A stretch of DNA of 64,000 nt. It comes from an uncultured Flavobacteriales bacterium. Its GTDB lineage: Bacteria; Bacteroidota; Bacteroidia; CAIKAF01. Position 1 is the first letter of the stretch; each line of letters starts with the position of its first letter. Both the position numbers and the translations under genes were made by a program. The notes below the pieces were generated by a model. That model saw nothing but the letters and a program-made list of their open reading frames with translations. It searched no databases and was not told the DNA's origin. Of this stretch, positions 15,961 through 39,502 are shown piece by piece. The stretch spans positions 62,001 to 126,000 of the forward strand of contig CAILUT010000031.1 of assembly GCA_903837495.1 (NCBI GenBank), given 5' to 3'.

Positions 15961-17241
15961 ATGAAACCGGCATTAAAAATTTCTGATCTATCAAAACAAT
16001 ACAGATTGGGGTCGGTTGGGGCATCAAGCTTAAAGGATGATGTGATGCAGTTTTGGGCCCGAATCCAAGGTGCACCAAATCCCTTTTTAAATAAGGGCGA
16101 TCGCAACGACCGAAGCATTAGAAGCGAGGATGCATATGTTTGGGCTTTAAAAGACATCAACTTAACCGTTAATCCAGGCGAAATTTTGGGCCTGATAGGA
16201 AAAAACGGTGCAGGAAAAAGTACCCTTTTGAAAATTTTAAGCCGAATTACCGCGCCCAGTACAGGTAAAATTGAAGTCAATGGGCGGATGGCATCCTTGC
16301 TGGAAGTAGGTACCGGTTTTCACCCTGAATTAACGGGTCGGGAAAACATTTATTTAAATGGGGCAATTTTAGGCATGCGCAGGTCTGAAATCAACCGAAA
16401 GTTGGACGAGATTGTTGAGTTTTCCGGGGTGGAAAGGTACATTGACACTCCCGTAAAACGCTACAGCAGTGGAATGTATGTTCGTTTGGCTTTCGCCGTG
16501 GCAGCCCACTTAGAACCCGAAATTTTGGTGGTTGATGAGGTGTTGGCGGTTGGGGATATCGAATTTCAAAAAAAATGCCTCCAAAAAATGGATTCGGTTG
16601 CTTCGGCCCAGGGAAGAACTATTTTGCTGGTAACCCACAACATGCGCGCCCTTACCAGCATTTGCAAAAAGGCAGTTGTACTTGAACAAGGCACGATTCG
16701 CTTTGTTGGCTCAGCTCCTGAAGCCGTTTCAATATATGAAAAATCCAGCATCTCGATACCTCAAAATGCCCTGGCTGAATGTTATGTTGAAGGACTTTTT
16801 CGGGTTTTGGATGTTTCTATTTACAACCTCCCCCAAAAACAAGGCTCTGTAGGTGTCTTGCTCGACAATGCACCCATACAAATTGCTTTGAGGTTCGAAC
16901 TGCTTGACAGCCGCCCAGAACAGTTTACCCTGATGTTTCATCTCTTGGATGTCAACTCGAATGCCGTGTTTTCTTTTTCTCCAACCTACTTTGATTCTAT
17001 GGTGTTTATTCAAGGCCGGCAAGAACTGAGATGCACAATACCTTCAGAATTTCTAAATTCAGGAACCTACAGTATTCTGCTATTGCTTATGAAAAACGAA
17101 ACAACCCCTCTATTAAGAACCGAAAATCTCCTGTATTTTGATTTGATTCCAGGGGGGCGACCTTTTGGTAAAAACGACATCGCCCAGCCAGGCCATGTAC
17201 GGCCTAAATTCCACTGGAATTTAATCACCGACTTAATCTAA
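15961..17241 (+). CDS. wzt: ABC-type polysaccharide export ATPase (Wzt) with C-terminal glycan-binding domain
   Basis: 426 residues. The Walker A GKNGAGKST is at 80-88, the signature SSGM at 169-172, the Walker B VVDE ends at 193, and the switch histidine region is LLVTHNM. Residues about 270-426 form the extra beta-sandwich domain that in Wzt proteins recognises the finished glycan terminus. It would power export through the Wzm permease at 1513. The first 70 residues are paralogous to the truncated copy at 2334. A 124-base intergenic stretch with a terminator-like hairpin precedes it, so it may have its own promoter. The distance from wzm (over 13 kb) is unusual, as the two are normally adjacent. 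Confidence 0.92.
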   Translation: MKPALKISDLSKQYRLGSVGASSLKDDVMQFWARIQGAPNPFLNKGDRNDRSIRSEDAYVWALKDINLTVNPGEILGLIGKNGAGKSTLLKILSRITAPSTGKIEVNGRMASLLEVGTGFHPELTGRENIYLNGAILGMRRSEINRKLDEIVEFSGVERYIDTPVKRYSSGMYVRLAFAVAAHLEPEILVVDEVLAVGDIEFQKKCLQKMDSVASAQGRTILLVTHNMRALTSICKKAVVLEQGTIRFVGSAPEAVSIYEKSSISIPQNALAECYVEGLFRVLDVSIYNLPQKQGSVGVLLDNAPIQIALRFELLDSRPEQFTLMFHLLDVNSNAVFSFSPTYFDSMVFIQGRQELRCTIPSEFLNSGTYSILLLLMKNETTPLLRTENLLYFDLIPGGRPFGKNDIAQPGHVRPKFHWNLITDLI

Positions 17242-20798: not shown

Positions 20799-22709
20799 AT
20801 GTGCGGAATAACCGGCATATACCTTAGCGACAGCCAACAATTCAGGCCCGAACTTCTGTCTAGGCTGCTTCAGCTTTCGCAGACCAGGGGCAAAGAGGCC
20901 TCGGGCCTGGCCTTGCGCGACAGCCAAACCCTGCGCTTTGTACGCTGCCCCCGGCCCGCCGAAGAACTGATGCGCACGGATGCCTACAAAAATCTAATTC
21001 AGGAGCGGGCCCCGGGCCCCATGTACCTGATTGCCCATTCCCGCTTGGTAACCAACGGCCACGAAAGCCAAAACCACAACAACCAGCCCGTGCACAGCGC
21101 GCCCTGGGTTTTGGTGCACAACGGCATTGTGGTGAATGCCGCCGAACTCTGGCAACAATGGGGAGCCGCACACAAACAGAGCGAGGTGGACAGCGAAGTG
21201 TTGGCAAGGGGTCTCGCCCTGCTCCCCGCCGAACAGCGCAACAGCCTGTTCAGCAGCATAAAAGGAACCGCTTCGCTGATAGCCTTGAATTCCGAATCCC
21301 CGGGCTGGTGGTACGGAAGCAACAACGGCAGCCTGTATTCCTTGCAAAATCCTGCCGGAACCCTGCAGGTGCTGGCTTCGGAACAACCCATGCTGCAGCA
21401 AATCCAAACCGAATTTTCCGACCTTTTCCCCTCGAGTTCCCGCCTGCATGCTCCCCAACTGAGCCAGGGCGAAGAACGGTGGGAGCAAGGAGGGGCAGTG
21501 CCCGTGCAGGAAGTAACCTCGGGACTTTCGGCGCCCATTCAAGCCCCAACCATGCATGGTGCATCGGGTTTGGAGCGCTTTCAGGCCCTTGCAAAGGAAA
21601 CCCAAGAAAGGGTGGACAGCCTGCGGCGGTGCAGCCGCTGCATTTTGCCTGAAACCTTTCCTTACATAGAGTTCGATGCCCAAGGAGTCTGCAACCAGTG
21701 CCGCAACCACCAACCGTTGCAGCCCAAGGGGACTGCCGCATTGCAGGCAGAGGTCCAGCGTTTGGCCCGGCCTGCAGGCCAGAGACCCCAATGTTTGGTT
21801 CCCTTTAGCGGCGGGCGCGACAGCAGTTTTGCCCTGCATTATTTGGTGCATGAGTTGGGCTTAAAGCCCTTGGCCTTCAGCTACGACTGGGGATTGCTCA
21901 CCGATTTGGCCCGACGCAACCAAGCGCGCATGTGCGGAGCCTTGGGAGTAGAGCATATACTAATTTCGGCCGACATCCGCGCCAAGCGGGCCAACGTACG
22001 CCGGAACGTCAGTGCCTGGCTTCGCCGACCCAGGTTGGGCACCATTCCCTTGTTCATGGCCGGCGACAAACAGTACTTTTTCCATGCCGCAAAGCTCATG
22101 AAGGCGTATGGCTTGGATTTGTCGGTAATGGGTGAAAACCTGTTGGAAACCACCCGATTTAAAACCGCTTTTTGCGGCATACCTCCTCGGTTTAATCAGA
22201 CAAAAACCTACCAACTAACGGTGGCCGATAAAGGCAAAATGCTGATGTACTATGGCAAGGAATACCTGCTGAACCCTGCCTATATTAATGCTTCGCTCAT
22301 CGACACCCTGGGCGCTTTTGGCTCCTACTATGCGCTGCCGCACCGCAATCTGAATTTGTTCGACTACCTGCCTTGGCAAGAGCAGCCCTTAGAGCAGCTC
22401 TTGTTGGGGCAATACGACTGGGAAACCGATCCAGAAACGCCCACCACCTGGCGCATTGGCGACGGCACGGCCGCCTTTTACAACTACATCTACTGGTCGG
22501 TGGCCGGCTTTACCGAAAACGACACCTTCCGCAGCAATCAGCTGCGCGAAGGGCAAATAACGCGGGCCGAGGCCCTCAGCAAGGCCCGGGCCGAGAACCA
22601 ACCCCGCTGGGGCGGATTGCAGTGGTATTGTTCCACCATTGGCCTCGACGTGCAAGGCGTACTCAGCCGCATAGCCAGCATGCCCAGCCTAATGCCCATA
22701 GCAAAATGA
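20799..22709 (+). CDS. Ntn-type glutaminase fused to a WbpG/WbuX-like sugar amidotransferase
   Basis: 636 residues. Residues 1 to about 215 are a class II glutamine amidotransferase: Cys2 in MCGITGIYL, QTRGKEASGLAL, AHSRLVTNG, VHNGIVVN and SEVDSEVLARGL. After a linker of about 60 residues comes a WbuX-type PP-loop enzyme: a zinc ribbon (Cys278 and Cys281, then CNQC), the PP-loop FSGGRDSSFA with Ser337-Ser343, and MGENLLETT. WbpG/PseA enzymes activate an acetamido sugar with ATP and use ammonia to form an acetamidino group. Normally the ammonia comes from a separate HisH/HisF pair; here the glutaminase is on the same chain. The exact sugar is unknown. The GC content looks higher than downstream. 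Confidence 0.8.
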   Translation: MCGITGIYLSDSQQFRPELLSRLLQLSQTRGKEASGLALRDSQTLRFVRCPRPAEELMRTDAYKNLIQERAPGPMYLIAHSRLVTNGHESQNHNNQPVHSAPWVLVHNGIVVNAAELWQQWGAAHKQSEVDSEVLARGLALLPAEQRNSLFSSIKGTASLIALNSESPGWWYGSNNGSLYSLQNPAGTLQVLASEQPMLQQIQTEFSDLFPSSSRLHAPQLSQGEERWEQGGAVPVQEVTSGLSAPIQAPTMHGASGLERFQALAKETQERVDSLRRCSRCILPETFPYIEFDAQGVCNQCRNHQPLQPKGTAALQAEVQRLARPAGQRPQCLVPFSGGRDSSFALHYLVHELGLKPLAFSYDWGLLTDLARRNQARMCGALGVEHILISADIRAKRANVRRNVSAWLRRPRLGTIPLFMAGDKQYFFHAAKLMKAYGLDLSVMGENLLETTRFKTAFCGIPPRFNQTKTYQLTVADKGKMLMYYGKEYLLNPAYINASLIDTLGAFGSYYALPHRNLNLFDYLPWQEQPLEQLLLGQYDWETDPETPTTWRIGDGTAAFYNYIYWSVAGFTENDTFRSNQLREGQITRAEALSKARAENQPRWGGLQWYCSTIGLDVQGVLSRIASMPSLMPIAK

Positions 22710-29229: not shown

Positions 29230-30276
29230 ATGGAATTTGAATTTCGTCTGCCGGTTAATTTTCAACCTGAATGGGCACACCTTTTCAAAAAAGACGAGCG
29301 TTACAAGAGCGTAAATTTAGGTGTAAAGCATCTAAGAAATGCCTTTGTTTCAGAAGATGGCCACGTAATTAAAAATGGGTTGCTGGTCCAAGGGTCGGCA
29401 CCCAACATAGGTTTTTCTAATTACGATACCAGCCATTATTTTGACCATTGGCGAACAGGTTTAGAGCAAGCACTGGTAAGTAAGTTTGGGCGAAGCCTAA
29501 AGCGCATCAATTTAGATGCTTCCAAACAGCATTTGCTGGTTCATTCGCCTTGGTTCAGCTACTATTTTTGGATTACGGAATGCCTACCTCGGATTTTAGC
29601 AGTGAAAGAAAGGCATTCAGAGCTTCACCTTATTTATCCGGAAGTATGGGATTCCATTCCCTTTGTGGTCGATTCTTTGGAGCTTTTTCCCGATTTGCGG
29701 AGGGAGCGCATTCCCAATCATTTCCACATGAAGGTTCCCAATTTAATTATGCCCGAAGTGAAGCCTTGGACACCGATGTTTATACCCGAACAAACCCATG
29801 AGGTCCGCGATTTGCTTTTAAACTGGGCAAAAGACACCCCTTCTAAATTTAGCCCCAAAATATACCTTTCAAGGGAACGTTCTGCGCGCAAAAAGTTTAG
29901 CAACGAAGACCTTGCCTTTCAGAACTTAAAGGAGCGCGGCTTTTCTGCTGTATTTTTAGAAGAACTGCCTTTTAAAGAACAAATTGCCACCCTACGCGAT
30001 GCACAAGAAATGGTAGCCATTACTGGGGCAGGAACCATAAATGCCATGTTTATGCCTCCCGAATCAACCTTGTTTGACATCACAAACCAAGATTACCTGC
30101 ACCGAAAACAATACAAGTTTCATTTTTTCAAAATGTGCACATTTTTGAACATTCGGTATGCCGTTTTGTTTGCCCAACCCGAAAGAGATCCCTTGGTTGA
30201 CCACTACAGCAAGCAGAATCTTATCTTTGACCCTGAGGCTTTTTCGATTATGTATAAACAGGTGAGTCAATTATGA
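29230..30276 (+). CDS. GT61-family glycosyltransferase, third of three
   Basis: 348 residues. HSPWFSYYFWITECLPRIL and ITGAGTINAMFMPPES are the GT61 blocks, here with GAGTIN in place of the usual GAxLTN, so the active-site loop has diverged. KIYLSRERSARKKFSNED is the arginine-rich strand also seen in the copy at 17294. The stop overlaps the start of the PIG-L gene by four bases (ATGA), so the two are coupled. Activity is inferred from family only. Confidence 0.72.
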   Translation: MEFEFRLPVNFQPEWAHLFKKDERYKSVNLGVKHLRNAFVSEDGHVIKNGLLVQGSAPNIGFSNYDTSHYFDHWRTGLEQALVSKFGRSLKRINLDASKQHLLVHSPWFSYYFWITECLPRILAVKERHSELHLIYPEVWDSIPFVVDSLELFPDLRRERIPNHFHMKVPNLIMPEVKPWTPMFIPEQTHEVRDLLLNWAKDTPSKFSPKIYLSRERSARKKFSNEDLAFQNLKERGFSAVFLEELPFKEQIATLRDAQEMVAITGAGTINAMFMPPESTLFDITNQDYLHRKQYKFHFFKMCTFLNIRYAVLFAQPERDPLVDHYSKQNLIFDPEAFSIMYKQVSQL

Positions 30277-30911
30277 TATCGTTATCTCCAACTCGAATTT
30301 TAGTTCTGGCTCCCCATACCGATGATGGAGAATTGGGCTGTGGAGGCAGCATTGCCCGGTTGGTTGAAGAGGGACATGAGGTGAAGTGCGTTGCTTTTTC
30401 CATCGCCGAAGACTCTCTGCCTCCCGGCTTTGAGAAAGATGCTCTGGCGCATGAATTTAAACTAGCCATGACGGAGTTGGGGCTTCAACCAAACAACATT
30501 CATTATCACCGTTTTAAGGTTCGGCATTTTCCTGAATTCCGGCAACAAATTCTACAAACTTTGATCGAAATACGGGGCGAATTCCGCCCCGATGTTGTTT
30601 TTCTGCCCAGTTTGAACGACATTCACCAAGACCATCAGGTTATTGCAAATGAAGGATTAAGGGCGTTTAAAAAATCTTCCATTTTGGGCTATGAAATGCC
30701 GTGGAACAACATCGTTTTTGAAACGCGCTGCTTTGTACAACTGCAAGAAAGGCACGTAGAAAAAAAAATTATGGCATTGAAGCACTATAAAACCCAACAG
30801 CACCGCTCGTATTTAAGCGAAGATTTTATCAGAGGATTGGCTAAAACCCGCGGCACTCAATTCGAATCAGACTTTGCAGAAGCTTTTGAGGTCATTCGTT
30901 GGATTATTTAA
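30273..30911 (+). CDS. PIG-L/LmbE-family N-acetyl sugar deacetylase
   Basis: 212 residues. APHTDDGELGCGGSIA (His15, Asp17, Asp18) is the zinc-binding N-terminal motif, with Thr in place of the usual Pro, and NDIHQDHQVIA supplies the HXDH ligands. Such enzymes remove acetyl groups from N-acetylglucosamine-type residues on small molecules or lipid-linked sugars. In this locus it could expose an amino group on the growing glycan for later modification. Start is coupled to the GT61 stop. No membrane helix. Confidence 0.85.
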   Translation: MISLSPTRILVLAPHTDDGELGCGGSIARLVEEGHEVKCVAFSIAEDSLPPGFEKDALAHEFKLAMTELGLQPNNIHYHRFKVRHFPEFRQQILQTLIEIRGEFRPDVVFLPSLNDIHQDHQVIANEGLRAFKKSSILGYEMPWNNIVFETRCFVQLQERHVEKKIMALKHYKTQQHRSYLSEDFIRGLAKTRGTQFESDFAEAFEVIRWII

Positions 30912-30956: not shown

Positions 30957-31898
30957 TTGACCCCCCCCCTCATTCAAAACGAATTTTTGCCCTTGTTTTC
31001 GATCGTCATTCCCATTTACAACCGGGAACATTTGATGGACGAAACCGTACAATCGGTTTGCAATCAAATTTACCCGCACTGGGAATGCATTTTGGTGGAC
31101 GACGGCTCAAGCGATGGAAGCTGGCAGGTTGTTCAGGATTGGGTCCGCAAAGACGCCCGAATACGGGCTTTGCAACAAGAAAACAAGGAGCGCTCGGCGG
31201 CACGAAATTTCGGAGCCAAACATGCCCAAGGTGAATGGCTTTGTTTTTTGGACAGCGACGATTGCTATTTGCCGGATTTTCTGAGTCATCTTGCCGAACA
31301 GATTCAATCAAACCCAAATCCGCCGGCCTTGTGGATTTCGGATTTCTTTTTGTGGGACGGGGAACAAAACCGGCCTGCTCATGTTCCGCCACCCACCCAA
31401 CCCTTGGCCGATTGGATTTGCCGACACCCTGTTACCCCTTCGCGCGCCTGCGTTCAAGCCTCGGCCTTTTCGCAATTCCAATTTCGAGAAGACATTGTGA
31501 TTGTGGAAGACACCGTTTTGTGGGTTCAGCTGCTCAGCCGCTTTCGGCTGGGATACCTGCCCCGGCCTTTGATGCAGTACCGAATCCACGAAGGCAATTC
31601 CGTCCACAGTTCCAGCCGGGCTGTGTTTAAGCGTTGGCAAGGGCTAAAGGCTTTTTTTAAAACTCCTGAGGCTCGACGGGTTTCCCCCAACATGCGCCGC
31701 TTTATGTTGGCCGATGTGCTGTTTAAAATGGCCGAGTGGGAAGCCAATCAAGGAAACAAATGGACCTCCGCAGGCTACTATCTGAGTTCGCTGAGGCAGC
31801 AAGCCGCAAATCGGCACACGCCCGCAAGGTTGTTTGGCTTGCTTGGATTGATCCCCGGATTTCATCGGTTTTGGACCTTAGTAAAAGCAAAGAACTGA
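30957..31898 (+). CDS. GT2-family glycosyltransferase
   Basis: 313 residues from a TTG at 30957, just downstream of an in-frame stop; no ATG exists before the conserved domain, so TTG is the only start of normal type. FSIVIPIYNREHLMDETVQS, ILVDDGSSDGSW, RSAARNFGAKHAQGE and FLDSDDCYLPDFL are GT2 motifs with the DSDD metal site; EDIVIVEDTVLW follows. It is related to the GT2 at 14880. Its stop shares bases with the ATG of the large fusion gene (TGATG). Confidence 0.8.
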   Translation: MTPPLIQNEFLPLFSIVIPIYNREHLMDETVQSVCNQIYPHWECILVDDGSSDGSWQVVQDWVRKDARIRALQQENKERSAARNFGAKHAQGEWLCFLDSDDCYLPDFLSHLAEQIQSNPNPPALWISDFFLWDGEQNRPAHVPPPTQPLADWICRHPVTPSRACVQASAFSQFQFREDIVIVEDTVLWVQLLSRFRLGYLPRPLMQYRIHEGNSVHSSSRAVFKRWQGLKAFFKTPEARRVSPNMRRFMLADVLFKMAEWEANQGNKWTSAGYYLSSLRQQAANRHTPARLFGLLGLIPGFHRFWTLVKAKN

Positions 31899-34800
31899 TG
31901 GCAAATCGCTTGGCGGTTTTTGTAGAAGACTATCCCTATTCCACGGGAGAGCCCTTTTTTCATGCCGAGTTGAAGGAGCTGATTCCTCAATTCGACGAAA
32001 TTCGGGTGATTTGCAAGCATGCTGTGGCCCGCCGAAAATCTCCGCCCGATTTCGCCTTGCCAGAAGGAGTAGAACTTATAGAACTAAACTCGCGTCCAAG
32101 CACCTGGTCAAAAGTGCTTAGTCTGGTTTGGGTTTTGGTTTCGGGCCGCTGGTTTTCCATATTTAAGGACCTACGCAGAACGAAAACGCCCCTAAATGTG
32201 TACACCTTTAAGGTGGCATTGGCCTACATGGAGTCGGCGGCGCGCATGGAAAAGGAATTGGCCCGGGCATGGAAAGGGCCCTTGAAAGACTGGATTTGGT
32301 ACAGCTACTGGTGCGACGATGCCGCCTATCTGTTGGCCCAATGGCAAAAAAAGGGCAAGATTGACCGCAGTTTTTGTAGGGTACACAACACAGATGTGTA
32401 CATGGAAAGGCATCCCTTTTCCTATTTGCCTTTCCGCAAATTTATTCATGAACAACTGAGCGGAATCTTAGCCATTTCAGACCATGCCCGCCGCTACCTT
32501 TGGGTTCAAACGCCCAGGGCTTCTTCCCGCATTTTGCTGAGCCGATTGGGTGTCCCAAGCCAAGAAGCCATTCCGGCAGCCAATGGAAATCCTTTTCGGC
32601 TGCTTTCCCTGTCAAAAATATCTCCGGTGAAAAACCTAGAGGGATTGATGCAGGCTCTTGCCCAATGGGATGGGCCGGAAATGGAATGGCATCATTTCGG
32701 ATCGGCCTCCAAGGCTCAATACGGGAACGAAATCCAACATAAAATGCAGGAATTGGCTACAGCCAATCCCCGAATTCAGGTTCATGTCCATGGTTTTGTG
32801 CCTCCGGCTGAAATGATGCAACGCATTCGGGCTTTGCAGCCTAATGCCCTAATCAATACCAGTTTTTTTGAGGGGATTCCCGTAAGCATGATGGAGGTGA
32901 GCTCCCTAGGAATCCCTGTTTTGGGCCCAGAAATCTGCGGAGTTCCGGAACTGGTACTCGATGGGGTTTCTGGATTTTTATTGAATCCCAATCAGCCCGA
33001 ATCCATACTTCAAGCGCTTAAAAAGCTGCTGGCGCTGGACGAAACGGAATACAAAGCCCTGCGTCAGGGAAGTTGGCAGGTACAACGCCGGGCTTTTCAA
33101 GACCGTTCAAACTTCAGGCAGCTGGTTTCGCAATTGAAGGGAGAGGCAGAACCACAGCTTGTGTTTGAAGGCGACACGGCGGATGTCGGGGTTTTGTCTG
33201 TGGGCACGGGAAATGTCGGGGTTTGGCTGGATTTTTTTCAAGCCGAGGGCATCAAGGCCATTCCTGTTTCAGAACCGAGCCAAATTCAGGGATGCCAGGG
33301 GTTGGTTTTGCCAGGTGTAGGGCACTTTGACGCGGCCATGCGCCGGCTGAACGAGCCCGAATTCCGAAAAGCCTTAGAAGGGCATTTCCAGAAAAACAAA
33401 CCGGTTTTGGGTGTTTGCTTGGGCATGCAATGCCTCATGCAAAGCAGCGAAGAGGGGGAAGAGCCGGGATTGGGCTGGATTCCTGGTAAAGTTATTTCCT
33501 TGAAAAGCCAAGCTGAAAAGCAAGGAGAGCCCTGGCCTCATGTGGGTTGGAAAGAGGCGGTGTCGGCTCAGGGCGCAAACCTAGGCAGGTTTTATTTTAC
33601 CCATGGATATGCTTGTGCACCGTTGGAAGCGGATAGCATTAGCCATACGTCGGCCTTCGGCTCCGAGCGGTTGGTGGTTGGGCTGCGCAAAGGACAGGTT
33701 TGGGGTTTTCAATTTCATCCTGAAAAGAGCCATGGCCGCGGCCGGGTTTTGCTTCGGGAATGGCTTCGGGAAGCGGGTTTTGCGGTCAGGCCTGAACCGG
33801 TGCCGGTTTCCGAATCTACGCTGGAATCCCCAAAAATCGACTCCCGCACCCTCTTTCTTCTGGTTCGGGATTTCCCTTTTGGGGTGTGTGAACCGCATTT
33901 GGCGGCCGAACTGCAGATTTTGGCGCCCCGTTTCCGAAAGGTGGTTTTGTTGGCCTACCATCCGGGGCCCCGTTCCGAGCGGCCCCTGTTTGGGATCCCG
34001 CCCAACGTTGAAACAATAGATGTGTCGTCGGGCATGCGTTTGCCCAACAAAGTACAGGCCGTATTGAAGTCGGGTTTGCCCCACCGATTGGGGCGTTTGC
34101 TGAGCGACCTGCCCGGTCCACATTGCCTGGGTTTAAAAACGGCATTGGCCTACGAAGCCATGGCCTCAACTTTACAAGGCAATGTGTTGAGGGTTCTACA
34201 GGAAAAAGGGCTGGATGCCCGTTCGGGGATTTGGTATGCCTATTGGACGGACCATGCCGCCTACCTATTGGCCCTTTGGATGCGAAGGAATTGGATACAA
34301 GCCTCCTTAAGCCGAACGCATGGTTCCGACATGTACGCAGAGCGTCACCCTTTGACCTACTTGCCCCATAGGGCTTTTATTTTTTCACAACTGAGTGCAG
34401 TGGCGGTGAATTCGAGCCACGGCATGCACTACCTAAAAACCCGGTATCCAAATCTTAAAGGCCGTTTTTGGCTGGCTCGTCTAGGGGTAGTTGAACAGGA
34501 GCCTTCCGACGTGGAATGGGCCTTACCCGTTCGGCTGGCGTCCCTCTCAGCCATTATTCCCGTAAAGAACCTAGAGTGGATTTTGGATACGTTGGAAGAC
34601 TGGACAGGACCCGAATTGGAATGGCACCATCTAGGCAAGCAGCCTGAAAGCGCATACACGGATGCAATTTTGAAACGGGGAATGGAGGTTTCGGCAGCGA
34701 ATCCTAGGGTAAAAATTTGCTTTCACGGCTATGTACCCGCTGGGGCGGTTTTGAATCGGGTTCGGAGCTTGAAGATTCATGCAATTTTAAACAGCAGCCA

Positions 34801-35083
34801 CTACGAAGGGGTTCCCGTTTCATTGATGGAAGGAATTTCTTTGGGTTTGCCGGGCATAGCCCCTGCTGTTTGCGGAGTGCCCGATGTGGTGGTAGATGGA
34901 TACAACGGATACCTGATTGACCCTCAAAACCCAAGCACTCTGACAAAGGCCATCGAGAGTTTGAGCAATCTGAACGAAAAGGAGTATAGCGAACTAAGAA
35001 AAGGGGCCTTGGCCCTTCAATCGGAACGGTTTTTGGCCTCAGCCAACTACAATCGAATGGCAGGCCTATTGCAAAATCAATGA
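31898..35083 (+). CDS. Three-domain fusion: GT4 - HisH-type glutaminase (WbuY) - GT4
   Basis: 1061 residues from ATG 31898, overlapping the previous stop. Residues 1 to about 425 are a GT4 enzyme (CRVHNTDVYMERHPF, LSLSKISPVKNLEGLMQAL, EGIPVSMMEVSSLG). Residues about 428-628 are a HisH-like class I glutaminase with the oxyanion strand PGVGHFDAAM, nucleophile Cys507 in GVCLGMQ, and His607 and Glu609 in FQFHPEKS, so the catalytic triad is complete. Residues about 648-1061 are a second GT4, clearly paralogous to the first (SRTHGSDMYAERHPL, LASLSAIIPVKNLEWILDTL, EGVPVSLMEGISLG). No Met begins either inner domain. The glutaminase should feed ammonia to the HisF-like barrel and the WbpG-like enzyme encoded next. 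The order GT-HisH-GT is not one I know for this pathway, where HisH is normally a separate small protein. Confidence 0.85.
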   Translation: MANRLAVFVEDYPYSTGEPFFHAELKELIPQFDEIRVICKHAVARRKSPPDFALPEGVELIELNSRPSTWSKVLSLVWVLVSGRWFSIFKDLRRTKTPLNVYTFKVALAYMESAARMEKELARAWKGPLKDWIWYSYWCDDAAYLLAQWQKKGKIDRSFCRVHNTDVYMERHPFSYLPFRKFIHEQLSGILAISDHARRYLWVQTPRASSRILLSRLGVPSQEAIPAANGNPFRLLSLSKISPVKNLEGLMQALAQWDGPEMEWHHFGSASKAQYGNEIQHKMQELATANPRIQVHVHGFVPPAEMMQRIRALQPNALINTSFFEGIPVSMMEVSSLGIPVLGPEICGVPELVLDGVSGFLLNPNQPESILQALKKLLALDETEYKALRQGSWQVQRRAFQDRSNFRQLVSQLKGEAEPQLVFEGDTADVGVLSVGTGNVGVWLDFFQAEGIKAIPVSEPSQIQGCQGLVLPGVGHFDAAMRRLNEPEFRKALEGHFQKNKPVLGVCLGMQCLMQSSEEGEEPGLGWIPGKVISLKSQAEKQGEPWPHVGWKEAVSAQGANLGRFYFTHGYACAPLEADSISHTSAFGSERLVVGLRKGQVWGFQFHPEKSHGRGRVLLREWLREAGFAVRPEPVPVSESTLESPKIDSRTLFLLVRDFPFGVCEPHLAAELQILAPRFRKVVLLAYHPGPRSERPLFGIPPNVETIDVSSGMRLPNKVQAVLKSGLPHRLGRLLSDLPGPHCLGLKTALAYEAMASTLQGNVLRVLQEKGLDARSGIWYAYWTDHAAYLLALWMRRNWIQASLSRTHGSDMYAERHPLTYLPHRAFIFSQLSAVAVNSSHGMHYLKTRYPNLKGRFWLARLGVVEQEPSDVEWALPVRLASLSAIIPVKNLEWILDTLEDWTGPELEWHHLGKQPESAYTDAILKRGMEVSAANPRVKICFHGYVPAGAVLNRVRSLKIHAILNSSHYEGVPVSLMEGISLGLPGIAPAVCGVPDVVVDGYNGYLIDPQNPSTLTKAIESLSNLNEKEYSELRKGALALQSERFLASANYNRMAGLLQNQ

Positions 35084-35808
35084 AACAGGCACCAAGGATT
35101 ATTCCGGTTTTAGGCCTTTTAGATGGGGGCCTTTGGAAGACCCAGGCATTTTCAACTCCACGTTATGTGGGCGACCCCATCAACGCCCTGCGGGTGTTTA
35201 ACGAAAAGGAAGCAGATGAAGTGCTTTTGATGGGTTTTCGGCAAACGCTAACTTCAGCTGAATTGCCCAAAGATTTGCTTAGCCGATTGGCAGGAGAAGC
35301 CCAAATGCCTTTGGGCTATGGGGGTGGAATCCGCAGCTTAGACCAGGTTAAATGGCTGATGGACAAAGGCTTTGAAAAAGTGGTATTCAACACCGCCCTC
35401 GCCGAAAATCCAGGTTTGATTGAAGAATCCGCCAGGCTGATGGGCAGCAGTTCTGTGTTGATCTCCCTGGATTATCGAATCGATGCCAAAGGCAAACGCC
35501 TATGTTATACACGGAGCGGCACACAGCTTTTGGGCATGGATTTGATTTCTGCTGCTGAAAAAGCAGGCAGTCTGGGGGCAGGAGAACTGCTTTTGCATCA
35601 GATCGATGGAGACGGCCTATACACGGGCTATGATGCTGAGGTATTGCAAGAGGTTCAGCCCCATACGCCCCTGCCCTTGGTGTTGGCAGGAGGTTGCCGG
35701 GGCAATCTTGATTTTACCGATGAATCGGCAGCGGGAGCCTCGGGTTTGGCCGCATCATCCTGCTTTGTTTTTTATGGGCGGCACCGGGCGGTTTTGATTC
35801 ATTATTAG
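35080..35808 (+). CDS. wbuZ: HisF-like glycosyl amidation protein (WbuZ / HisF2)
   Basis: 242 residues, overlapping the fusion gene by four bases (ATGA). The (beta/alpha)8 barrel starts PRIIPVLGLLDGG and has TPRYVGDPINALRVFNEKEAD and LGYGGGIRSL. True HisF has Asp11 (IPCLDV) and Asp130 as catalytic acids. Here the first is Gly12; the second is present at Asp131 in ISLDYRIDAKG. Loss of the first acid argues against imidazole-glycerol-phosphate synthesis and fits the WbuZ/HisF2 group, thought to guide ammonia from HisH to WbpG/PseA. The C-terminal segment (GLAASSCFVFYGRHRAVLIHY) is the usual end of the barrel. Confidence 0.88.
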   Translation: MKQAPRIIPVLGLLDGGLWKTQAFSTPRYVGDPINALRVFNEKEADEVLLMGFRQTLTSAELPKDLLSRLAGEAQMPLGYGGGIRSLDQVKWLMDKGFEKVVFNTALAENPGLIEESARLMGSSSVLISLDYRIDAKGKRLCYTRSGTQLLGMDLISAAEKAGSLGAGELLLHQIDGDGLYTGYDAEVLQEVQPHTPLPLVLAGGCRGNLDFTDESAAGASGLAASSCFVFYGRHRAVLIHY

Positions 35809-35816
35809 GTTACAAA

Positions 35817-36920
35817 ATGAAGAAATGCTCCTCCTGCCTTCTTAGCACCCAAGACCAACCCAACCTATCCTTCGATAGCGCAGGCCGGTGTTCCATTTGC
35901 CTCCACTATGCCCAACAGGCACCCCTGAGGCAAAAATCCGCAACCGACCTGGAAACCCTGCTTGCTCAACTTCGAAAAGCGGGGAAAGGCAAACCCTACG
36001 ATGCCTTGATTGGATTAAGCGGAGGCACCGACAGCTCCTACGTGGCCTTGCTTTGCCGGGATTTGGGCTTGCGCGTTCTTGCCGTTCACCTGGACAACGG
36101 ATGGAATTCCGAACGGGCCGTTCTCAACATGGAACGGATTCTAAGCCGCCTGAACATTGATTTGTACACCTATGTGGTTCCCTGGGAAGAGTTTCGAGAT
36201 TTGCAGCGGGCCTACATCCGGGCCGGAGTCATTGACATCGAGGTGTTGACCGACCACGCCATCGCCGCCATCCTGTTTCGCCTGGCCCGCAAATTTGATG
36301 TGGGCTACATTCTAAGCGGAGAGCATTTTGCCACCGAAGGACAATTGCCCTCAAACTGGGTGCACAACAAACTGGACCACCTCAACATTTTGGGGATTCA
36401 CCGGCAGTTTGGCGAAATTCCCATCCATAGCTACCCATTGATGTCCTACTATCGGTACCGCTGGGGCCAAGGAAAGGGGCGGGCCCGATCCATTCCCATT
36501 TTAAATTATGTGGACTACCAAAAGGAGGCGGTTAAACTGCGGTTAAGCCAAGAATTGGGTTGGCAAGATTATGGGGGCAAACACCATGAATCGGTCTTTA
36601 CCCGTTTTTATCAGGCATACATTCTGCCCATTAAGTTTGGCGTGGACAAACGCAAAAGCCATTTGTCCACCCTTATCGCCGCGGGGCAACTCAGCAGAAC
36701 AGAGGCAGAGCAGGAACTAACCAAACCTATATGTCCTCCCGAATTGCTCGAGAAAGACAAACGATTTGTATTGAAAAAGCTGGGCTTTTCTGAAGCCGAG
36801 TTTGACTTTTTTATGGCTCAGCCCCCCGTTCCGCATTTGGCCTATCCCAGCGTAATCCATACCCTCAATCGGATTTCCCGACCTTGGAAGCGGGTAAAAG
36901 GCGTATTTTCGTCCCCATGA
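35817..36920 (+). CDS. wbuX: WbpG/WbuX-like N-acetyl sugar amidotransferase (PP-loop)
   Basis: 367 residues. The zinc ribbon has Cys4, Cys7, Cys25 and Cys28 (KKCSSCLLS and RCSICLHY); the PP-loop is GLSGGTDSS (Ser68-Ser74), followed by VHLDNGWNSERAV and YILSGEHFATEGQLP. The family uses ATP to activate an N-acetyl group on a sugar and replaces its oxygen with ammonia, giving an acetamidino group, as for WbpG (ManNAc3NAmA) and PseA (Pse7Am) in other bacteria. Ammonia should come from the HisH domain at 31898 through the HisF-like protein at 35080. The target sugar is not evident, since no pseudaminic acid or ManNAc3NAcA pathway genes are seen here. Confidence 0.87.
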   Translation: MKKCSSCLLSTQDQPNLSFDSAGRCSICLHYAQQAPLRQKSATDLETLLAQLRKAGKGKPYDALIGLSGGTDSSYVALLCRDLGLRVLAVHLDNGWNSERAVLNMERILSRLNIDLYTYVVPWEEFRDLQRAYIRAGVIDIEVLTDHAIAAILFRLARKFDVGYILSGEHFATEGQLPSNWVHNKLDHLNILGIHRQFGEIPIHSYPLMSYYRYRWGQGKGRARSIPILNYVDYQKEAVKLRLSQELGWQDYGGKHHESVFTRFYQAYILPIKFGVDKRKSHLSTLIAAGQLSRTEAEQELTKPICPPELLEKDKRFVLKKLGFSEAEFDFFMAQPPVPHLAYPSVIHTLNRISRPWKRVKGVFSSP

Positions 36921-39502
36921 GTTCAGCTCCCGTGAAGGTTGTTTTTCTAACCTATTTTTATCCGCCTTGCAGCCTAACGGCGGCCAACCGTGTCAGTGGA
37001 TGGGTGAAGCATCTGCAAGGGGGGCCTATTGCGCCGGTGGTAATTACCCGGAATTGGGATCGGCCCATTGGCCGGGAACGCGATGTGGCTTTGCCCAGCG
37101 GGGAAGCCGTAGAGGTGAAACGGGAAGGTACAGCAGAAATTCATACCGTGCCTTTTCGGCCGCTGCTCCGAGACCGTTTGATCACCGGCCCTCAGTTTTT
37201 TATGATCGCCCCTTTGCGTCGATTGCTGTCGTTGTTTGAACGCTGGCTGGGCCGCTGGATGCCCCGCTGGAATCCCTCGCACCAGGTGGGCGAATATGCC
37301 TTGGAATACCTGCGCAGCAATCCCGATGTGGCCTTGCTGGTGGTGAGTGGAAACCCTTTTCAGTTGTACTATTACGGCTGGAAAGCCAAGAAGGAATTGG
37401 GGATTCCCTGGGTGGCCGATTACCGAGACGATTGGTCCACCAACCGCCTGGTGCCCATTCAAGGTTGGTTCGCAAAGTGGATGCGCAATCTGGACAGCAA
37501 AACCGAAAAACGCTGGGTGGGTACAGCCGAGGCCATTTGCTCGGTGTCAGAAGAGTACGTGGACCGCATATCTGCACTGACGGCCAGGCCGGGGTTTACA
37601 GTTATGAACGGGTTCAACGCCCTGCTGAACTCGCCCGAACCTCCGCAGAACAAGGCATTTACCCTTTTGTACAGCGGATCCTTGTATGCTGCCCAGCCCT
37701 TGGAGGCATTTATGTCGGTATGGACTCAGGTGCTGACCGAATTTCCAAATCTTCCCTGGAAAATCGTATTCCTGGGCCTCAGTTACAGCCCCGCGCAGGT
37801 GGAAAGGGTAAAGCAATCCCTACCCAAGGCCCTTTGGGGCTGGGTGGAGTTTAGCCCTAGAATTCCAGTGGAACAAGCCCTGGAAAGAACCCGACAGGCC
37901 GATGCCTTGCTTATGCTGACCTATCAGCAGCAAGGAATCCCATCCAGCAAACTGTTTGATTATTTGGCCTCTGGCCGCCCGGTGTTGGCCTTTCCCAAAG
38001 ACGGAGACATCATTGAGCGCATTGTTTTGCAATCGCGAATGGGGCAAGTTCTTTCGGATGCGACCGCCCTTGCCGACCACCTTAGGGGGCTTTTGAATGA
38101 ATGGGTAGAAAAGGGCTGCATTGCTGCTCCCGACACCCGTTTTGTAGAAATGTATTCCCGGCAGGCGCAAACGGAACTGCTGCTAAAGAACCTGCAATTC
38201 ATATTGAGCCCCAAGCGAACCTGGATGGTTTTGTGCAACGACTACCCACCCTTGAACGCGGTTGCCGCGGAACGCCCCTCGGCTTGGGTTGCCGATTTGC
38301 TCGACATGGGCGAACGGGTTGTATTGGTTACCAAAAAATGGACGGGGCCCGAAACCCATCCCCGGCATTGGTGGTATGGTGGAAAACCTCAGATTCAACA
38401 ATCGGTGCAAGGGCAACTGACACGCATTTTGGTGCCCAACCGAATGGTTCCTACGGATTGGCTGATGCGCCGTTTTCCGAAAAGGCAGCCCGCCTTGCTG
38501 CGCAAAGCCCTTACCGCCACATGGAATTTATGCAGTTGGTTTAACAGCCGTTTTGACCGCCACGCCCATTTGTACCATGGGGCTGAACACTACCTAGAAC
38601 AGCACAAGGTAGATGTGCTGCTGGCCACCGGAAATCCCTTTCAAAACTTTCGGCATGCCTACCGCTTGCACAAAAAGTTTGGGGTTCCTTGGCTGGCCGA
38701 TTACCGAGACGGTTGGTATTTAAACCAGGAAACCATTCGGCAAAGAGGAATGCTGGCCTTCTTAATTCGGCAGGTGGAATGGAGAAAAGAACAACGCTAT
38801 TTGCAAACGGCGGCCATAGTTACGGCGGCCAGCCCTGCTTTGGCCGAATTTTATACTTTTCTGTTTAACCGAAAGGTGTTTACCCTATTCAATGGTTTTC
38901 GGGACATACCGGAACCCAGGCTGGGTTTTCGGGGCGATGCCCAGAAATTGTGGGTGCACAACGGAACCCTAAAAGCCACCCAAGATGTGGAATTTTTGTT
39001 GGACGCCTTGCTGGTTCCGATCAAAGAGGGAAAATTGCAACCGGGCGATTTGGAACTTCGTTTTGTGGGCTTGGATCATTTTCCGGACCAATGGGAGCGG
39101 GTACGCCATAGGCATACGGAATTGCAACCCTTTTTAAGCGCCACGCCCCGACTGCCCAGAGAGGAAAGTTTGCAGCACAACCTGGCGGCCGATGCCCTTT
39201 TGGCCATTTCAGATCCCGCCTACAACAACATTTACGCCAAGGTGTTTGATTACATCGGTTGCGGCAAGCCCATACTTGTGGTACCCAATGACCCCGGCTT
39301 AATGAACCGCCTGGTGGAAGACCACGGTTTTGGACGTGCTTGTTTTGGGGCTGAGGATTTGGTAGGCCTTGCCTTAGGGGCCGAAATCCTCGAAACCAAT
39401 CCCAACAGCGAAAAACATAAAACAACCTTCCACCGCCGGGCTCAAAGCGAGCGACTAAGGTTGTTGGTTGGGCAACACATATTTAACGAAGATACCGAAT
39501 GA
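36917..39502 (+). CDS. Double glycosyltransferase: two fused GT4-like domains
   Basis: 861 residues from ATG 36917, coupled to the previous stop (ATGA). The first half (about 1-435) has [50 protein letters not shown] and [20 protein letters not shown]. The second half (about 436-861) repeats the plan: [48 protein letters not shown] and [19 protein letters not shown]. The halves are therefore an internal duplication. The sequences resemble WbuB/WecA-neighbour type GT4 enzymes that lack a canonical EX7E. Dual-domain enzymes of this kind can add two different sugars in turn. It is the second consecutive double-GT gene in this locus. Confidence 0.75.

Follow-up and report, generated by a model that had tools for sequence, protein, structure and literature searches.

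A HisH-type glutaminase between two GT4 glycosyltransferase domains in one protein, encoded beside sugar-amidination genes in an uncultured Flavobacteriales bacterium

We analysed a window of 64,000 nucleotides (contig CAILUT010000031.1, positions 62,001 to 126,000) from the genome of an uncultured Flavobacteriales bacterium, here called G000; the other G codes and the L codes denote compared genomes and their loci. The gene studied lies at 31898-35083 on the forward strand (+) and translates into a single frame of 1061 residues with zero internal stops. Pfam and NCBIfam models placed three domains in this protein, in the order GT4 glycosyltransferase, HisH-type glutaminase and GT4 glycosyltransferase (Table 1), which upholds the uninterrupted frame described in an earlier note made from the sequence alone. 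The Glycos_transf_1 model matched two stretches (116.5 bits, cut-off 26.4), and both copies carry an EX7E motif, EGIPVSMME at residues 325-333 of the N-terminal domain (GTa) and EGVPVSLME at 970-978 of the C-terminal domain (GTb). The proposed homology of GTa and GTb was confirmed, with 38% identity across 415 columns (E value 2e-103). The gene order in the window is fusion, then hisF2, then wbuX.

Table 1. Coordinates of the fusion domains, of neighbouring genes and of related loci.
Feature	Position (strand)	Remarks
GTa, N-terminal GT4	31898..33142 (+)	residues 1-415; Pfam Glycos_transf_1 at 224-383
Linker 1	33143..33181 (+)	residues 416-428; fast-evolving; predicted disorder 419-425
HisH-type class I glutaminase domain (HisH2/WbuY-like)	33182..33772 (+)	residues 429-625
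Linker 2	33773..33835 (+)	residues 626-646; fast-evolving; predicted disorder 634-647
GTb, C-terminal GT4	33836..35080 (+)	residues 647-1061; homology to GTa
HisF2 (WbuZ/AglZ-like) barrel	35080..35808 (+)	NF038364, WbuZ and PF00977 matches
WbuX/WbpG-type N-acetyl sugar amidotransferase	35817..36920 (+)	TIGR03573 251.8 bits, cut-off 203.2
Neighbouring double-GT4 protein	36914..39502 (+)	
PIG-L family deacetylase	30273-30911 (+)	two genes upstream of the fusion
636-aa glutaminase/WbuX-like protein	20799-22709 (+)	
Wzt-like ABC transporter ATPase	15961-17241 (+)	
GT-B-like domain-HisH fusion in L134	L134:8687-10690 (-)	next to hisF2 and wbuX; NeuB gene in L134
GT-B-like domain-HisH fusion in L135	L135:8781-10790 (-)	next to hisF2 and wbuX
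Unfused wbuX-hisH2-hisF2 set of G005	L048:900-3409 (+)	

Neither inner domain appears to have a start of its own. No in-frame ATG was found at either domain joint, in agreement with the earlier note. In-frame GTG or TTG codons occur in G000 at residues 413, 422, 433 and 435 (joint 1) and 635 (joint 2), whereas in two congeners joint 2 of G005 has none and joint 1 of G002 has only a GTG within the GxGN motif. Since these codons differ among the three species, an internal start is not conserved. The start of the fusion gene overlaps the preceding stop by 1 base, and its stop overlaps the hisF2 ATG by 4 bp, so that translation of the fusion is probably coupled to that of its neighbours.

The genome is a draft assembly of 67 contigs, and separate genes could have been merged by an assembly or sequencing error. 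However, the full three-domain protein with an intact frame was found in two more assemblies of the same genus, at 90% identity in G005 (VGMT01000005.1) and at 62% identity in G002 (CAIKAF010000005.1); the architecture therefore exists elsewhere, in two further congeneric species, which the earlier note had proposed to look for. A homologue in G003, 68% identical, is interrupted by the contig end. The ratio of nonsynonymous to synonymous substitution rates (dN/dS) between G000 and G005 was 0.14 for GTa, 0.08 for HisH and 0.13 for GTb, as compared with about 0.4 in the short joints. These ratios point to purifying selection on each of the three domains. Because the same architecture recurs in separate assemblies and coding selection is seen throughout the frame, we rejected an artefact as extremely unlikely.

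The glutaminase domain retains the catalytic residues of HisH. The HisH model TIGR01855 matched residues 430-623 with 150.9 bits (cut-off 105.4), and the signature is kept: the triad C507/H607/E609, at the positions given in the earlier note, the PGVG oxyanion strand at 472-475 and the CLGMQ elbow. The domain matches Thermotoga maritima HisH, with equivalents of C84, H178, E180, W123, Y138 and K181 all present. The last three, here W551, Y566 and K610, are gating residues, and their conservation suggests that the glutaminase is still controlled by a HisF-type partner; the title of PDB entry 2wjz describes constitutive behaviour of a HisH K181A/Y138A mutant. An AlphaFold2 model of the fusion had good confidence within the domains, with a mean predicted local distance difference test score (pLDDT) of 82, and a low predicted template modelling score (pTM) of 0.48, with both joints disordered (Table 1). 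By Foldseek, the HisH part resembled solved HisH chains (template modelling (TM) score 0.83-0.85, root-mean-square deviation 2.5-2.9), and the GT4 parts resembled MshA/BshA-type enzymes (TM score around 0.75). With disordered linkers in the predicted model, nothing suggests that the HisF face is blocked.

The score of the glutaminase domain exceeds the cut-off of the histidine-pathway HisH model, as would be expected if it worked in histidine biosynthesis. Yet a genome-wide search of the near-complete window genome found no second HisH, and the genome-wide PF00977 search for HisF/HisA returned, besides the HisF2 encoded in the window, a single partial match of 31.9 bits. A tree of HisH sequences sets the fused domains apart from HisH of histidine operons, although its deep branches are weak. 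With no further HisH and no full-length HisA/HisF-family match besides the adjacent HisF2, we rejected the histidine role as very unlikely; the domain is best read from these searches as a HisH2-type ammonia source dedicated to sugar amidination. The earlier suggestion that the glutaminase is the HisH2 of an acetamidino-sugar system, tethered to glycosyltransferases, is borne out by the adjoining hisF2 and wbuX, by the absence of any sign of a histidine-pathway HisH, HisF or HisA in the genome searches and by recurrent links to GT4 genes in relatives from several families.

These links were surveyed in a sample of 394 genomes across the phylum and in a denser set of 395 genomes of the class. 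WbuX was present in 34 of the 394 genomes of the phylum sample, in which the best HisH matches listed outside the genus were in frames of ≤357 aa. The class sample contained three further HisH fusions (G511, G505 and G553). GT4-HisH proteins that have no second GT4 occur in the congeners G001 and G004 and in G511, a member of another family, whose 656-aa protein has a GT4 domain 43% identical to GTa and is followed by hisF2. Every inspected GT4-HisH gene (G000, G001, G002, G004, G005 and G511) is followed by hisF2. Direct fusions of a related GT4 to WbuX occur in G007 and G011, which belong to the family of the window genome, and in G018, G064 and G481 (another family); in G556 and G532 such a fusion is indicated by equal frame length only. 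A related GT4 is a separate gene beside hisH2 or wbuX in six more genomes (G056, G087, G085, G531, G507 and G555), and in the last three it overlaps wbuX by 4 bases; hisH2-hisF2 there lies on the other side in divergent orientation.

The fusions in G505 and G553 (loci L134 and L135) join HisH to an unrelated domain of 450 aa with no Pfam match, the model of which gave GT-B-type matches (SPINDLY, UDP-sugar 2-epimerase) with modest scores. In the congeners G729 and G529 (L159 and L160) the same domain is encoded separately from hisH by a gene that overlaps it by 4 bases, and hisF2 and wbuX follow. Comparison of these gene arrangements indicates that fusion or splitting of adjacent genes occurred within one genus, and that this domain-HisH fusion is independent of GT4-HisH.

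Overlapping unfused pairs of this kind mean that fusion requires few steps. Loss of a stop codon between overlapping genes may simply fix co-expression and stoichiometry, in which case HisH would partner HisF2 and WbuX in the ordinary way and the GT4 domains would gain nothing from the tether. The 4-bp-overlapping neighbours in sister species of another genus fit such an origin, as do the variable linkers with their predicted disorder. We nevertheless consider it rather improbable, since fusions have arisen repeatedly and with different subunits (GT4-HisH, GT4-WbuX and the unrelated domain-HisH), and the present one has been kept at 62% identity. That transferases have repeatedly become fused to more than one amidination subunit, as seen in these predicted proteins, supports the view that ammonia release, amidination and sugar transfer are physically coupled.

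The fusion was found in no viral contigs, and no plasmid record had a single location that covered 80% of it as the query. No paper on a glycosyltransferase-glutaminase fusion was found in the literature searched, although such absence is weak evidence. We concluded that the fusion architecture is genuine and conserved, and that the literature searched has no earlier description of it.

In the GT4 tree, GTa and GTb share one group with the GT4 domain of every GT4-HisH protein (support 87/86). The nearest outsider is an unfused gene of G485, the larger group being supported at 100/100. Within the group GTa, GTb, the G001/G004 domain and the G511 domain form an open fork, so the tree leaves the GT duplication undated. 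A sub-clade of the genus carries the second GT4 at the C-terminus. Because G001, G004 and G511 have GT4-HisH with no second GT4, the simplest order of events would be that an adjacent GT4 and hisH2 fused first and that a paralogous GT4 joined the C-terminus later; alternatively, the second GT4 may have been lost from the proteins of these three genomes. The same two-domain proteins make it less likely that hisH was captured between tandem GT copies, as the earlier note had supposed. The downstream double-GT4 protein (Table 1) gained its second module in the same species set, and thus the assembly enzymes of this lineage grew by two modules. In G001 and G004 the orthologue of its first half is a single-domain GT. 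The second half of the window protein comes from a more distant source and did not arise by recent duplication of the first half. We had considered that both neighbouring GT genes duplicated internally in parallel, since this protein, too, has two GT4 modules against one in G001 and G004, but dropped the idea for this reason.

We favour, with a probability of about 0.7, a scaffolded glycosyltransferase-glutaminase that would hold ammonia release, amidination and sugar transfer in one assembly. The HisH domain would hydrolyse glutamine and the ammonia would travel via the HisF2 barrel, encoded by the adjacent gene, to WbuX, which would convert an acetamido (N-acetyl) substituent on an activated sugar to acetamidino. 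The GT4 domains of the same chain would then transfer the amidinated sugar and/or add the next one. We infer the HisH-HisF2-WbuX complex, the channelling of ammonia, the sugar handled by each GT4 and the kinetic coupling. Several observations weigh against this proposal. HisF2 scores below the curated cut-offs of NF038364 (244 bits, cut-off 310) and WbuZ TIGR03572 (203.8, cut-off 299.7), though both are its best models (hisF 129.8, PF00977 134.7), and the HisF2 proteins of most inspected relatives likewise fall below the curated cut-off. Three members of the GT4 family (in G024, G068 and G083) have no amidination genes within the stretches read. GT4 and amidination genes also both tend to sit in polysaccharide loci, which raises the chance of proximity by coincidence.

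The tether might go further and form a megaenzyme, with the embedded glutaminase feeding ammonia via HisF2 into WbuX and with substrate channelling delivering the newly amidinated sugar straight to the GT4 domains on either side; we regard this version as tentative and somewhat doubtful. The GT4 domains might also handle a sugar that precedes or follows the amidinated one, so that the tether brings the acceptor and not the donor, with amidination taking place on a lipid-linked glycan. This arrangement seems to us unlikely, since PseA/WbpG-type enzymes probably use nucleotide-activated sugars. It draws support from Methanococcus maripaludis, where the next sugar is no longer added once amidination is lost: deletion of the WbpG homologue MMP1081 led to loss of the acetamidino group of sugar 3 and of all sugar 4 (PMC2952790, unpublished there). 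For the favoured scaffold, too, this deletion may serve as a precedent, of a next transfer that depends on amidination.

The fusion is best called a variant of the WbuXYZ acetamidino-sugar system. As in WbuX-WbuY-WbuZ (WbpG-HisH2-HisF2), a HisH2-type glutaminase, a HisF2 barrel and a WbuX-type amidotransferase are co-encoded in a polysaccharide locus, but there the glutaminase is a free protein of about 205 aa and here it lies between two GT4 domains. With the HisH-HisF pair of imidazole glycerol phosphate synthase the domain shares the HisH fold, the triad and the HisF-gating residues; unlike in that system, the search of the window genome gave no other histidine-pathway HisH, HisF or HisA. 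HisH fusion has a precedent in the fused HisHF of yeast (PDB 1jvn), where the partner is HisF and not a glycosyltransferase. The dual GT4 modules in one chain, in an ABC-transporter (ATP-binding cassette) glycan locus with a Wzt-like ATPase, recall WbdA of Escherichia coli O9a and Klebsiella pneumoniae O3, a type of polymerase with two mannosyltransferase modules in one chain (PMC11231755). The glutaminase separates the two modules here. In the GT4-WbuX fusions (G007, G011, G018, G064 and G481) a related GT4 is likewise tethered to amidination machinery, but the tethered subunit is the ATP-using amidotransferase and there is a single GT4.

Acetamidino sugars are found in bacterial O-antigens, flagellar glycans and archaeal glycans. 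To our knowledge, no settled account connects amidination with the building of the glycan chain. Natural fusions of transferases to two different amidination subunits point to a physical complex, the recurrence being the most informative part, and they provide candidate proteins for testing one. They also single out one GT4 clade as the candidate transferase for the amidinated sugar, by which an open assignment problem becomes a direct experiment. The occurrence of the fusion in a group of uncultured lake bacteria, and the repeated origin of similar partnerships in relatives, suggest one assembly for decorating and attaching the sugar.

Other genes in the window and its relatives also bear on amidination and glycan export (Table 1). 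The 636-aa protein combines a class II (N-terminal nucleophile, Cys2) glutaminase domain of the GATase_6/7 type with a WbuX-like amidotransferase domain that scored 114.8 bits, below the cut-off of 203.2. It has orthologues in G002 and G003 and is predicted to give this locus another amidating enzyme, one that is complete in itself. Elsewhere in its genome, G005 has an extra unfused wbuX-hisH2-hisF2 set. The Wzt-like ATPase suggests that the glycan is exported by the ABC-transporter route. The PIG-L family deacetylase gene is kept in G005, G002 and G003, and a gene 54% identical to it adjoins a GT4-WbuX fusion in L043.

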